Positions 23,319 to 27,249 of a stretch of DNA of 28,290 nucleotides are shown piece after piece (positions within the stretch are counted from its first letter, which is position 1; each line of letters begins with the position of its first letter). Origin of the DNA: a virus; IMG/VR virus record IMGVR_UViG_3300048028_000325, positions 1-28,290 of that record; one strand, given 5' to 3'. The notes under the pieces were generated by a model. That model was not told where the DNA came from, did not search any database, and saw nothing but the letters and a program-made list of their open reading frames with translations. Made by a program: the position numbers and the translations under genes.

Positions 23319-23556
23319 CTTTAAATTTTATTCTAGCCCTACTACCTTCTATAACTATCTCAGAAGAAGTAGCCTGCCTGTTAAATTCTTGCACATACGG
23401 CTCTATATCTTTACGTGTCGCCATAAAACTCAAAAAGACTGCTATTTCTTTAGCAGCCCTTTGGGTGTCATCTCGAAGAGTCTCGGATTTCTCTTTACTT
23501 TCTAGTAAATCGTGGTAATCCTTTAGAGATATAGTTACTGTACCTGCAGGAATCAC
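23311..23556 (-). CDS. Small hypothetical protein after the GroES-like gene
   Basis: An 81 aa protein with a helix at ISLKDYHDLLESKEKSETLRD (9-29 in outline), a second helix rich in Ala/Phe (RAAKEIAVFLSFMATRKD) and a final strand pair ending in SRARIKFKDA. The ATG overlaps the stop of the GroES-like gene (4 nt, ATGA), so it is translationally coupled to it. The opening TVTISLKDYHDLLE is a form seen in many short phage proteins of unknown role. Confidence 0.5.
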   Translation of the reverse strand: MIPAGTVTISLKDYHDLLESKEKSETLRDDTQRAAKEIAVFLSFMATRKDIEPYVQEFNRQATSSEIVIEGSRARIKFKDA

Positions 23557-23834
23557 AAGAATCTACCTAAAATTTGGAATTCGTTAACAAATAAGTACGA
23601 TACCTCATTGATATGTACAATCATTGCCTCTGAACTAGGATCTACCATAACAGTATCCCCAACTTGTGTCTGTCTACAATCTGGTCCTACTGCTAATACT
23701 TCTAGAACATTAGTACGCAGCTTGTTTGCTACGTCATCTTCTAGAATAATTCCTGACTCTCGCTTTTTTGCTGCAGGATTGGGTAATATAACCCATCCAC
23801 CGTAAGGTTTAAAATCTAATTTAGTGTCTGCCAT
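23553..23834 (-). CDS. GroES-like co-chaperonin (Cpn10 family)
   Basis: A 93 aa protein of typical Cpn10 length. The N-terminal strand FKPYGGWVILPNP (8-20) matches the PLGDRVLVKP start of GroES; KKRESGIILEDD (23-34) corresponds to the mobile loop that contacts GroEL; VLEVLAVGPD (43-52) is the conserved GxVLAVGxG strand, VGDTVMVDP (58-66) the VGDKVLF strand, and NEVSYLFVNEFQILGRF the C-terminal strand. Phages such as T4 use their own co-chaperonin (gp31) with host GroEL to fold capsid protein, so a role in capsid assembly is likely. It is the first gene after a good promoter. Confidence 0.85.
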   Translation of the reverse strand: MADTKLDFKPYGGWVILPNPAAKKRESGIILEDDVANKLRTNVLEVLAVGPDCRQTQVGDTVMVDPSSEAMIVHINEVSYLFVNEFQILGRFL

Positions 23835-24237: not shown

Positions 24238-24763
24238 ACTTCACTCCCATTATTGTTCCTATGATGCTAAAGCTATTGGTAAGGAGGATACCAAATAGGT
24301 TGCTCCACGCATTACCAAGCAATGTGGTGTCTTTTCCCATCATTATTGCCATAGTATATAGTATAGTGGTGGTTATTCCCACCATAACTATAACTATCAA
24401 TGCCACCCTTACAATGAGTCCTATCAACTCAAACTGGGTGCGCTTTTGTAAGGTATCTAGATCCTCTACAGCTTTATCTCTTAGTTTCTCCGCTTCATCC
24501 TTTTCATTCTGAAGCTCTATAACAAGAGCCTTATTTACTGTGGCCGCTTCTTCAAGCTCTTTGTTCTGAGCCTGTACTTGCTTAGTAACATCAAGCCTTT
24601 TTCTACGGGCATTCTTATCCCTAGCTTTGCACTCTTCAACATACTCCTTGACATCGGCAGGTAAAGTTTTTGAAAGTATCTTTACGAAGTTCCCCTCCAA
24701 GTAAACCTTCTTAGCTTTTGCTTTACGCAATGCTTCCTCTACCGTGTCTTTAGAAGTTATCAT
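24215..24763 (-). CDS. Coiled-coil protein with C-terminal two-helix membrane hairpin
   Basis: A 182 aa protein. Residues 1-55 are basic and helical (VEEALRKAKAKKVYLEGNFV start), 55-108 form a strong heptad-rich coiled coil (QVQAQNKELEEAATVNKAL and LQNEKDEAEKLRDKAVEDL), and two membrane helices follow at about 112-140 and 152-175 (FGILLTNSFSIIGTIMGV). The N-terminus is predicted in the cytosol. Its ATG overlaps the response-regulator stop by 4 nt (ATGA), so it is coupled to it. It is the best candidate for the regulator's output partner: a membrane channel, holin-like pore or scaffold driven by the receiver domain. The C-terminal hairpin also fits a holin. Confidence 0.6.
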   Translation of the reverse strand: MITSKDTVEEALRKAKAKKVYLEGNFVKILSKTLPADVKEYVEECKARDKNARRKRLDVTKQVQAQNKELEEAATVNKALVIELQNEKDEAEKLRDKAVEDLDTLQKRTQFELIGLIVRVALIVIVMVGITTTILYTMAIMMGKDTTLLGNAWSNLFGILLTNSFSIIGTIMGVKYATGEGK

Positions 24764-25197
24764 TTGTACACTTTGAACGGATTTTCTTTGTTCTTATAAC
24801 CTTCGTAGTCCTTAACAAAGTCCTCAAGGCGTGGCTCTATCTCATCACTCTTGATGATCCAAAACTGGGCACCTACTCCCTTCGCTTTATCAATTTCTTG
24901 GTTGTCATCAGAGCTAGAAATAATACCAATAACCACTCCGTTTCCATAATCTGTATTTATTTTTCTGATAAGTTCAATGCCGTCAAAGCTTGAACCAATG
25001 ATGTTGAGGTCCACGAATACACACTCTGGTCTTTCGTCGATAGGGCCCTCAACAAACCATTTCTTAAATAATTTGTCTGCTTCATCTGAACTGTCTAGGG
25101 CTTGTAAGCTTAATGTCATATCAAGGAGGCTGCATGCATCCTCAAACACTAAGTGGAATAGATCCTCATCATCAACTAGTAGTATACTATCTATCAT
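24760..25197 (-). CDS. Stand-alone receiver-domain response regulator
   Basis: A 145 aa CheY-like protein consisting of a receiver domain and a short tail. The acidic pocket is D9-D10 (LLVDDED), the phospho-acceptor D63 (CVFVDLNI), the switch serines at S94-S96 (GIISSSDD) and the invariant Lys K116 (WIIKSDE). There is no DNA-binding or enzymatic output domain; only about 25 polar residues follow. The D+2 region (LNIIGSSFDGIELI) has a short insertion as in rcp1/CheY-like single-domain regulators. ATGA overlaps join it to the kinase before it and the coiled-coil membrane protein after it, so it is expected to be phosphorylated by that kinase and to act by protein contact. Confidence 0.9.
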   Translation of the reverse strand: MIDSILLVDDEDLFHLVFEDACSLLDMTLSLQALDSSDEADKLFKKWFVEGPIDERPECVFVDLNIIGSSFDGIELIRKINTDYGNGVVIGIISSSDDNQEIDKAKGVGAQFWIIKSDEIEPRLEDFVKDYEGYKNKENPFKVYK

Positions 25198-26423
25198 TTC
25201 AATTTTATTATCATCATTGTACCATTCTCCAGTTTCTCAGCCCTCATTGTAAAGCCATGCTCCTTAATAATAGCTACACAGATATTTAATCCTAATCCGG
25301 TGCCTTTATGTTTAGTGTTGCCGCGGGTATACGGCTGAGAAAGTCTTAAAAAATCCTCTTGACTTATACCAGTCCCATTGTCCTGGATAGCAATAGTATT
25401 TTCAACTCTAAAGATCGTTACTTTTTTCGTACCGCTATTATTATACTTTAATCCATTTCGAATCAAGTTATCCACAGCAGTACAGAAGAGTGCAGGGTTA
25501 ATTTCTAACTCTCCCAAGTCCTTGATTACAACCTGCTTACTGTAAGATGTTGAAGATAGATAGTTTTTAAGAATATCCTTTACATTTACAAGCTGCATAT
25601 CAAGTTGTGCATCTTCCTTTACTAGGTTAGTGAATTCTTTTACGCCAGTGTATACTTTTTGTGTGTGGTTTAGTCCCTCCTGTATCATTCTCAAGGGGGC
25701 TGTAATTTTTAGATCTTCTATTTGCTTTTCTGTCAGTCTACGCTTTAGGCTTCTTAGTCCTCGTGGTATGTATGTGTTGATGCCTGAGTGCATATCGTGC
25801 CTTAGGATCTTAGCAGCGTGCTCCAAGTATCCATTCTTCTTATGCATCTCTTCCTCAATCTCTTTTGACTCAGTAATATCAGATGCAATCTTCAGAATCC
25901 TGTACACCTCTCCATAGGGATTCATAATAGGATTGTAGTTACCATAAATCCAAATATCATTACCATCCTTATCCACTCGTAGGAACTCACCGCTCTTTAC
26001 CTTGCCTTTACTCAAGTCATACCAAAAAGAACTGTAGGCTGCCTTATCAATATGCTTAGGCATAAATATCCTGTGGGGCATACCAATAATCTCCTCCTCT
26101 TGGTACCCAGTCAACTTACAAAACACATCATTGCAAGAAATAATAACTCCGGCCTTGTCAAACTCAACAAGTGCATTGGACTTATCAATAGCCGCTAGGG
26201 TATCATCAATACTCTGAAGCTTATACCTAACTCTCCTGACAAACTCTACAACAGTGTAGAAAAAAAATGGCATAAAAAGTACTACAGCCGCCCATCCTAT
26301 GACCACGCTCTGCCTTGTTAATTCTGCATAGCCGATCATAAGAGCCGTCTGGTAACTAAAAAACGCTAGCATAATTGCAACTGCAATACCTAGCGTTATA
26401 CGCGATACAATAGATAATTTCAT
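25194..26423 (-). CDS. Membrane PAS-domain sensor histidine kinase
   Basis: A 409 aa kinase. Two hydrophobic helices (about 8-32 and 38-60) with a very short loop anchor it, so sensing is probably intracellular or within the membrane. A PAS domain spans 75-185 (FCKLTGYQEEEIIG; FWYDLSKGKVKSGEFLRVDK; IWIYGNYNPI), of the Aer/BdlA type often linked to redox or small-ligand sensing. The dimerisation/phosphorylation helix has H209 in ILRHDMHSG. The catalytic domain has the N box DNLIRNGLKYN (318-328), the G1 box DNGTG (348-352) and the G2 box GTGLGL (374-379). All catalytic motifs are intact, so it should be active. It overlaps the response-regulator gene by 4 nt. Confidence 0.92.
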   Translation of the reverse strand: MKLSIVSRITLGIAVAIMLAFFSYQTALMIGYAELTRQSVVIGWAAVVLFMPFFFYTVVEFVRRVRYKLQSIDDTLAAIDKSNALVEFDKAGVIISCNDVFCKLTGYQEEEIIGMPHRIFMPKHIDKAAYSSFWYDLSKGKVKSGEFLRVDKDGNDIWIYGNYNPIMNPYGEVYRILKIASDITESKEIEEEMHKKNGYLEHAAKILRHDMHSGINTYIPRGLRSLKRRLTEKQIEDLKITAPLRMIQEGLNHTQKVYTGVKEFTNLVKEDAQLDMQLVNVKDILKNYLSSTSYSKQVVIKDLGELEINPALFCTAVDNLIRNGLKYNNSGTKKVTIFRVENTIAIQDNGTGISQEDFLRLSQPYTRGNTKHKGTGLGLNICVAIIKEHGFTMRAEKLENGTMMIIKLK

Positions 26424-26730
26424 CTCTACCCGTTTAGATACACCTTCCCCTTAGGGAATTTGTATTTCGATTGGAATTTTACCTCTTAGCAGTGCTACCA
26501 TTTCTGGTTACCTAGGGACACTAAAACTAGTGTTAATTCACCGCACCTACCTGTGTGCAATGTGCCCCAACTACAGGCTATATCCTCTCTTTTCGAAGCT
26601 ATTGGAGAAAACTCTGTTCCTTATTTAGGAACTACAATCCAACGTCTGACCCCATAACTACCTTTTGGCCCTCTGGGGTGATACACTTTCGTGTGCTTCT
26701 GGTGGTAAAGATATAAAAATTTATAAACTC
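26424..26730 (-). other. Non-coding, hairpin-rich leader region before the kinase gene
   Basis: All six frames of this 307 nt stretch are closed by many stops. Five short perfect or near-perfect hairpins lie within about 235 nt: 26649-26654/26674-26679 (6 bp), 26616-26621/26627-26632 (6 bp, 5 nt loop), 26518-26523/26528-26533 (6 bp, 4 nt loop), 26497-26500/26505-26508 (4 bp closing a GAAA loop on the minus strand) and 26445-26449/26454-26458 (5 bp, 4 nt loop). If transcription comes from the box near 26864, this would be the untranslated leader of the kinase message. It could be a structured regulatory RNA or attenuator. It matches no RNA family that I recognise. Confidence 0.45.
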
Positions 26731-26862
26731 CTAGCTACCGCAGTTTTCACAATCTGGATTATCAATGGAGCATTGAGCGTTATCGTTCTTTTCGTCACTC
26801 GTAAGTTCGTCAACAAAATCTTGGAAGTCGTCACTTAAATTAAAATCTTCGGTCATAGACAT
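26731..26862 (-). CDS. Acidic small peptide with CxxC-type end
   Basis: A 43-codon frame (or 41 from the second ATG at 26856) giving an acidic peptide, MSMTEDFNLSDDFQDFVDEL at the start, ending in C-x6-C-x2-C-GS (C31, C38, C41). The -7 box ends 1 nt before the first ATG, so transcription likely begins inside codon 2 and the ATG at 26856 would be the usable, leaderless start. It is the first gene of the transcript carrying the kinase. The Cys triplet may bind a metal or form a redox switch; it could also be a leader peptide for the structured region behind it. Not recognised as a known family. Confidence 0.5.
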   Translation of the reverse strand: MSMTEDFNLSDDFQDFVDELTSDEKNDNAQCSIDNPDCENCGS

Positions 26863-26863
26863 G

Positions 26864-26871
26864 CAAAGATA
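26864..26871 (-). promoter_or_regulatory. Perfect -7 box for the two-component operon
   Basis: Minus strand TATCTTTG, an exact TAnnTTTG match. The TTTTTTTC stretch about 18 nt upstream is a poor -33 element. The box ends 1 nt before an ATG, which suggests a leaderless start at the second ATG (26856). It would drive the small peptide, the structured region and the kinase operon. Confidence 0.55.
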
Positions 26872-26917: not shown

Positions 26918-26937
26918 GTGGAGGATTTGTGAGCGTG

Positions 26938-26973
26938 TTGACCAACTACAACACAGACCCCCACTATACTTTG
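26938..26973 (+). promoter_or_regulatory. Putative promoter for the rightward genes
   Basis: A TTG (26938) is followed, after about 22-24 nt, by TATACTTTG (26965-26973), which matches the Bacteroidota -7 pattern except for a one-base spacing difference. It lies about 43 nt before the ATG at 27016 and supports that start over the GTG at 26929, which would lie upstream of the promoter. Confidence 0.4.
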
Positions 26974-27015
26974 GCGTTGGGAATAGTCCCACGTCAAATC
27001 CTAAAACATAAAAGT

Positions 27016-27249
27016 ATGGACTTATTAACATTTCTGCGCCAACAAGGTGCAACAACAGCAAGCAAGGTAGTAGGCCCTAAGGGAGCGTTCATCTCTTACG
27101 CAACCAAGAAGGGAACGTTCACGCTACCCGTTGGCAAGAAATCCCAAGCAGGGACATTGGCTGAGTTCAACATCGTGTTCGGCGAGAAAGACAATCAGCC
27201 TATTGCTACAATCAGCGACTATTCTGTAGAAGAAACGCTATCGTTGTAA
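27016..27249 (+). CDS. Small basic hypothetical protein
   Basis: From the ATG at 27016 it encodes 77 aa (MDLLTFLRQQGATTASKVVG start). An in-frame GTG at 26929 would add 29 residues, but it lies before the putative promoter and lacks the A-rich upstream sequence seen before the ATG. The body carries KGAFISYATKKGTFTLPVGKKSQAG in outline (residues 21-45), two strands with Lys/Thr faces, and a final NQPIATISDYSVEE. It is compact, probably cytosolic and possibly a nucleic-acid or protein modulator in an early region. Followed directly by a strong terminator, so it is a single-gene transcript. Confidence 0.55.
   Translation: MDLLTFLRQQGATTASKVVGPKGAFISYATKKGTFTLPVGKKSQAGTLAEFNIVFGEKDNQPIATISDYSVEETLSL

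Follow-up and report, generated by a model that had tools for sequence, protein, structure and literature searches.

Results

The DNA analyzed here, a 28,290-nucleotide stretch that we refer to as the window, is a 28.3-kb fragment of a crAss-like phage that encodes a major capsid protein (PF23898), TerL (phrog_6681) and a portal, with its structural genes on the minus strand. A non-coding gap at 26424-26730 separates a 43-aa open reading frame (ORF) from a PAS-histidine kinase gene, both on the minus strand. The features of the locus are:

23553-23834, minus strand: GroES-like gene (Cpn10; PHROG 3188), the next gene after the RNA in relatives that lack the kinase (L085- and L139-type contexts)
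25194-26423, minus strand: PAS-histidine kinase (Pfam PAS, HATPase_c), which comes next after the RNA in the window and is absent there in relatives
26433-26700, minus strand: whole structured RNA, about 268 nt (~270), 5' end at about 26700, boundaries shared by nhmmer homologues
26706-26713, minus strand: -7-like promoter box TATCTTTA, one mismatch to TAnnTTTG, 5 nt before the RNA (TATCTTTG in L085)
26731-26862, minus strand: 43-aa ORF preceding the RNA, its product with CSIDNPDCENCGS at the C terminus (ORF call)
26864-26871, minus strand: -7 box without mismatch, TATCTTTG, before the 43-aa ORF (read from the sequence)

An earlier note had described the gap as free of open frames, and this was borne out. 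No long frame is kept across relatives and length differences are not multiples of three, so a coding explanation was rejected. The note had also reported five hairpins. The region is indeed structured, but the helices are more numerous, six in a core and about nine in a 3' domain, and all are parts of a single multi-branched fold; the RNA itself spans about 26700 to about 26433. The hairpin that had been seen as closed by GAAA on the minus strand (CACAC-GAAA-GUGU at 26683-26695) is real and corresponds to helix P2. The parts of the RNA, all on the minus strand, are:

26590-26700: domain 1, a four-way-junction core of six helices (pair counts on alignments A4 and A5; alignment-free test of P1 and P2)
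26695-26699 with 26595-26599: core helix P1 (GAAGC/GCUUC), which closes the four-way junction
26691-26694 with 26683-26686: core helix P2 with its GAAA loop
26679-26682: AUCA between P2 and P3, in the core
26674-26678 with 26650-26654: core helix P3, with an inner CC-AAAA-GG and followed by UCAGAC
26638-26643 with 26601-26606: core helix P4
26628-26632 with 26616-26620: core helix P4b
26433-26589: domain 2, a branched 3' domain ending in ...CCCUAAGGGGAAGGUGUAUCUAA (RNAalifold on 20 homologues; covariation score)

A GAAAA tail after the 3' strand of P1 ends the core, and the covariance model matches the window RNA at 26590-26700.

Covariation identifies a structured RNA

Folding of the minus strand was better than that of shuffled controls (-87.9 versus -72.0 +/- 5.4 kcal/mol; z -2.95; 1 of 100 shuffles as low) and the plus strand was weaker (z -2.42). 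It was covariation in relatives, rather than folding energy, that proved decisive in confirming the observation. In an alignment-free test, five bases after a conserved CCRAUA motif were taken and their complement was sought upstream. P1 was complementary in 111 of 126 distinct copies, compared to 10.0 +/- 2.8 after strands were exchanged between copies, and in 121 of 126 compared to 27.0 +/- 4.2 when G-U pairs were included; 39 different P1 sequence pairs occur among the distinct copies. The strands of P2 were complementary in 100 of 121 copies (14.3 +/- 3.2 expected). Among 11 close relatives, 12 of 27 pairs carry double changes while 99.7% of cells are paired, and the covariance model derived from these 11 sequences matched all 70 diverse loci tested. 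In a core alignment of 71 sequences, which was fitted to the structure and of which the alignment-free test is independent, 96.1% of cells pair, double changes are found in 555 cells versus 158 in shuffles, and the covariation score is 0.645, versus 0.169 for shuffled sequences and 0.05-0.11 for slid partners. MAFFT misplaces the 5' strand of P1 when the length of P2 varies (alignments A2 and A3), and models were therefore built from alignment A4 and refitted (A5).

Pairing in the 3' domain was assessed within the crAss-like group. RNAalifold on 20 homologues predicted 36 pairs, 16 of which have changes on both sides, with a covariation score of 0.438 versus 0.224 shuffled and 0.07-0.12 slid. 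A closing stem GAUAUAG/CUGUAUC for this domain was poorly supported and was rejected, the alignment favoring GGA/UCC. Compensatory changes are already seen among the four close contigs L001-L004: UUCC/GGAA becomes UCCC/GGGA, and in two contigs near-identical to the window the GAAA-capped hairpin is exactly one A-U pair longer.

The consensus core is arranged as P1, the short hairpin P2 (often with a small loop), AUCA, P3, UCAGA, P4, the second strand of P1 and GAAAA. P3 is CCC/GGG, with an inner stem bearing a GNRA-like cap in many copies, P4 is GUYGGR/YCCRAU with an inner hairpin, and the junction nucleotides are strictly conserved. Taken together, the covariation is overwhelming: the stretch is a structured RNA, and the window holds one copy of a strongly conserved, elaborately folded RNA family.

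Distribution of the RNA family

Well over 100 contigs of uncultivated phages, both crAss-like and others, carry homologues, which also turn up sporadically in genomes of Bacteroidota. A TerL scan and two motif scans yielded at least about 330 viral loci, and nhmmer, started with the window RNA and continued with a profile, found at least about 230 places in 440 loci, many with little identity outside the core. Scanning 84,980 species genomes of bacteria and archaea with a pattern gave at least 85 matches, among which those backed by the profile or covariance model fall in Bacteroidota (Polaribacter, Flavobacteriaceae, Belliella, a Cyclobacteriaceae MAG, a Chitinophagaceae MAG and two rumen MAGs) and in one Endomicrobium MAG. 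Even near these genomes the RNA is sporadic, with matches in 2 of 41, 1 of 41 and 3 of 40 genomes of sampled relatives (starting genome counted) and in 1 of 395 phylum-wide, in large searches with strict filters. The covariance model found no copy in 11 named phages (gut crAss phages, Cellulophaga, Flavobacterium psychrophilum and Azobacteroides phages), and BLAST gave no real match, either for four representative copies in a collection of 50,697 phage records or for one of them in plasmids.

A search of Rfam 15 at the gathering threshold with the window RNA and diverse members returned no family, the only hits being tRNAs elsewhere in the loci, and permissive searches gave chance or unrelated matches alone (SNORD103, MIR5229). 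ARAGORN predicted no tRNA or tmRNA gene in the window. The weak MIR5229 match coincides with a long near-perfect inverted repeat (L222, 131-206) near a phage copy of the RNA. We found no description of the RNA in the literature, although PMC8040213 may list it as an unnamed entry. The best reading is that this RNA of about 270 nt is a new, previously uncatalogued RNA family that is absent from Rfam.

The RNA is independent of the gene behind it

The RNA had been noted as lying in front of a kinase gene. This holds for the window and four near-identical contigs, the only five in which a kinase follows the RNA, but elsewhere the RNA precedes groES, terminase or tail genes. Among close kinase relatives, only those four contigs (L001-L004) have the same gap, and in more distant ones coding genes occupy the site and the RNA is absent. 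Conversely, two contigs found with a 23-nt pattern from the gap (L085 and L084) lack the kinase module and keep the RNA; L085 has the order 43-aa ORF, RNA, groES. Because both retain the RNA without the kinase, and their identity with the window ends at 26427, at the start of the kinase module, the RNA is a unit of its own. A kinase-specific leader was rejected, since the RNA is present in relatives that lack the kinase and is missing beside other kinases. The kinase belongs to a phage two-component pair with a receiver-domain protein (window 24760-26423, minus strand); at least 597 viral contigs encode kinase relatives, and L085 and L084 are without the module at this place.

These results bear on whether the RNA could sense a ligand and act as a riboswitch or attenuator on the gene that follows. 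A structured RNA in leader position with strictly conserved junction nucleotides would suit such a role. However, the gene behind the RNA changes completely between phages, no terminator alternative was found, terminator-like hairpins were seen behind only 2 of 82 viral copies (shuffles predict 0.5), and no Rfam riboswitch matched. A riboswitch or attenuator for the following gene is thus very unlikely, and one specific to the kinase is not supported.

The RNA heads the late operon of phages

Downstream genes are co-directional with the RNA in 110 of 111 viral copies, and upstream genes run the opposite way in 64 of 74, compared to 59% in each case at random positions of the same contigs; the copies are related, and these counts are not independent events. 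The contigs, from IMG/VR, are fragments on which ORFs were called simply. The first gene behind the RNA, the kinase in the window, is groES in most crAss-like copies. In the L349 type the RNA is followed by a small peptide and then the small and large terminase, in L206 by PhoH, and in L191 and L286 by LamG- or tail-like proteins. Since the downstream genes differ, an effect is expected on the operon and not on one gene. The RNA heads the genes for the virus particle and probably helps to switch them on.

The pRNA of phage phi29 is a packaging RNA, and proximity to terminase genes raises the question of a similar role here. Like pRNA, the RNA is phage-encoded and lies near packaging genes in some members, close upstream of both terminase subunits in the L349 type and about 3 kb before TerL in crAss-like phages. 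Its size and fold are different, however, and it is not tied to packaging genes in all members: the bacterial copies have no phage packaging genes beside them, PhoH, tail or LamG-like genes follow it in other viral groups, and gut crAss phages with related terminases lack it. We therefore consider it improbable that the RNA works with the terminase in packaging.

Promoters and ends

TAnnTTTG is the -7 promoter element of Bacteroidota (PMC7366714). This element is found within 60 nt upstream of a conserved AUCACCC motif in 65 of 117 viral copies (TAnnTTT in 80 of 117), mostly 28-37 nt from it, and the usual promoter spacing would place the transcription start at the first base of P1. Some copies (L112, L118 and L266) have no box, and their RNA starts directly at the stop codon of an upstream CxxCGS peptide. 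A CxxCGS tail is encoded ahead of about 30 crAss-like copies; the short proteins that carry it (window, L310, L266, L291 and L319; for example CSIDNPDCENCGS) are otherwise different in sequence. At the 3' side, 29 of 81 viral copies have the next start codon within 45 nt and no intervening promoter, and a second TAnnTTTG, usually before groES, lies between the RNA and the next gene in 32 of 81. On the plus strand, the gene across the divergent promoter region (window 26929-27249) probably starts at ATG 27018 rather than GTG 26929, and its L085 homologue starts at the ATG corresponding to 27018.

Bacterial copies

The bacterial copies look like stand-alone genes, with co-directional genes downstream in only 5 of 21. 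Two rumen Bacteroidales MAGs (L378, L387, L413, L438 and other contigs) harbor 12 and 16 near-identical stand-alone copies of the core, scattered among unrelated genes, each with its own promoter box and several followed by a GC-rich hairpin; relatives of these MAGs in the same genus and family mostly have no copy. A guide RNA with a variable guide was rejected, as the multi-copy rumen sequences are nearly identical and have no guide-like variable segment. No consistent neighbor gene was found for the bacterial copies, with the exception of two near relatives that share a restriction locus and two that share a small upstream gene. In Belliella and a Cyclobacteriaceae MAG (L357 and L371), the RNA is arranged tail-to-tail with the genes for an Mrr-like protein and for a type IIG-like restriction enzyme, possibly a defense island.

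Multiple copies in two rumen genomes, sporadic occurrence among relatives and invariant core nucleotides might point to a ribozyme or a mobile RNA, either resembling an intron or self-cleaving. Against this, no group I, group II or self-cleaving Rfam model matched, the RNA is intergenic and interrupts no gene in the contexts inspected, and it is promoter-linked with fixed ends. There is thus little likelihood of such an element.

Discussion

We propose that the RNA, a new family at the 5' end of the late operon, stays on the late transcript and acts in cis, a tentative reading to which we assign a probability of about 0.42. The RNA, read on the minus strand, would often start at its own host-type promoter and remain attached to the late transcript. 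It would most likely bind RNA polymerase during transcription, by itself or together with a protein, and the long operon might thereby be transcribed to its end in the manner of the HK022 put RNA. The variants nearest to this would have the RNA protect the late mRNA or control its translation. Late genes of a cultured crAss-like phage probably require host RNA polymerase (PMC8375218), and a host-type promoter at the RNA fits this dependence. The cis reading is favored because of the operon position and the rarity of terminators. Against it, gut crAss phages do without the RNA, and the second promoter in many copies means that the operon can have its own start there.

Alternatively, the RNA could be a trans-acting small RNA, probably in a ribonucleoprotein, that is transcribed from a promoter of its own as the late phase begins and acts on host or phage targets, such as the host polymerase, the ribosome or a defense system; its place beside the late operon would then reflect shared timing. 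This explanation, although the less probable of the two, is a serious rival. The promoter box at the 5' end of the RNA and the second promoters before groES support it, and the stand-alone Bacteroidota copies, rarely followed by co-directional genes and numbering 12-16 in two rumen genomes, suit a trans-acting RNA and count against action in cis. Conversely, the RNA keeps its near-invariant place at the head of the operon despite different downstream genes, and terminators behind it are rare. The cis and trans readings remain close. The earlier note had suggested either a leader or a small RNA in infection. It was right in kind, as this is a structured non-coding RNA, while the link to the kinase was incidental.

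Among known systems, 6S RNA is a single long bulged hairpin, unlike the multi-branched junction RNA described here, and no Rfam 6S model matched. The 6S RNA described in Bacteroidota (PMC7366714) would nonetheless be a precedent for an RNA acting on the RNA polymerase of this phylum. In phage HK022, the nascent put RNA alone makes polymerase ignore pauses and terminators, a case of processive antitermination (PMC9378689). Both put and the new family are structured, phage-encoded and 5' in a long co-directional transcript, which for the 110 viral copies is judged from gene order. A mechanism without a dedicated protein, as that of put, would explain why the downstream genes are free to vary. 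The genes under the control of put are early ones, in a phage of E. coli, whereas the RNA family described here is about 270 nt long, has a four-way junction, heads late genes and occurs in Bacteroidota phages and genomes, and its polymerase binding is hypothetical. GOLLD and ROOL are large ornate RNAs, some of them in phages (PMC12286853); they share with the new family a large conserved structure, an occurrence mainly in metagenomic and phage DNA, and the lack of a clear gene partner. They differ in that the new RNA is smaller and heads a late operon, and the Rfam models of GOLLD and ROOL did not match it.

A bolder and rather doubtful idea, which extends the analogy with put, is that this class of RNA, present in unrelated phages of Bacteroidota and in some Bacteroidota genomes, might by itself reprogram the host RNA polymerase for the late stage. 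If true, it would be a put-like RNA for the phages of a whole phylum, with a new four-way-junction fold.

Bacteroidota phages, including the crAss-like phages, are abundant, but how they activate late genes is not well understood, and the phage RNAs known from this phylum are few. A highly covarying RNA at the early/late boundary of several unrelated phage groups is probably important to these viruses. The RNA provides a concrete object for work on late transcription, and its covariance model allows the family to be annotated in viromes.
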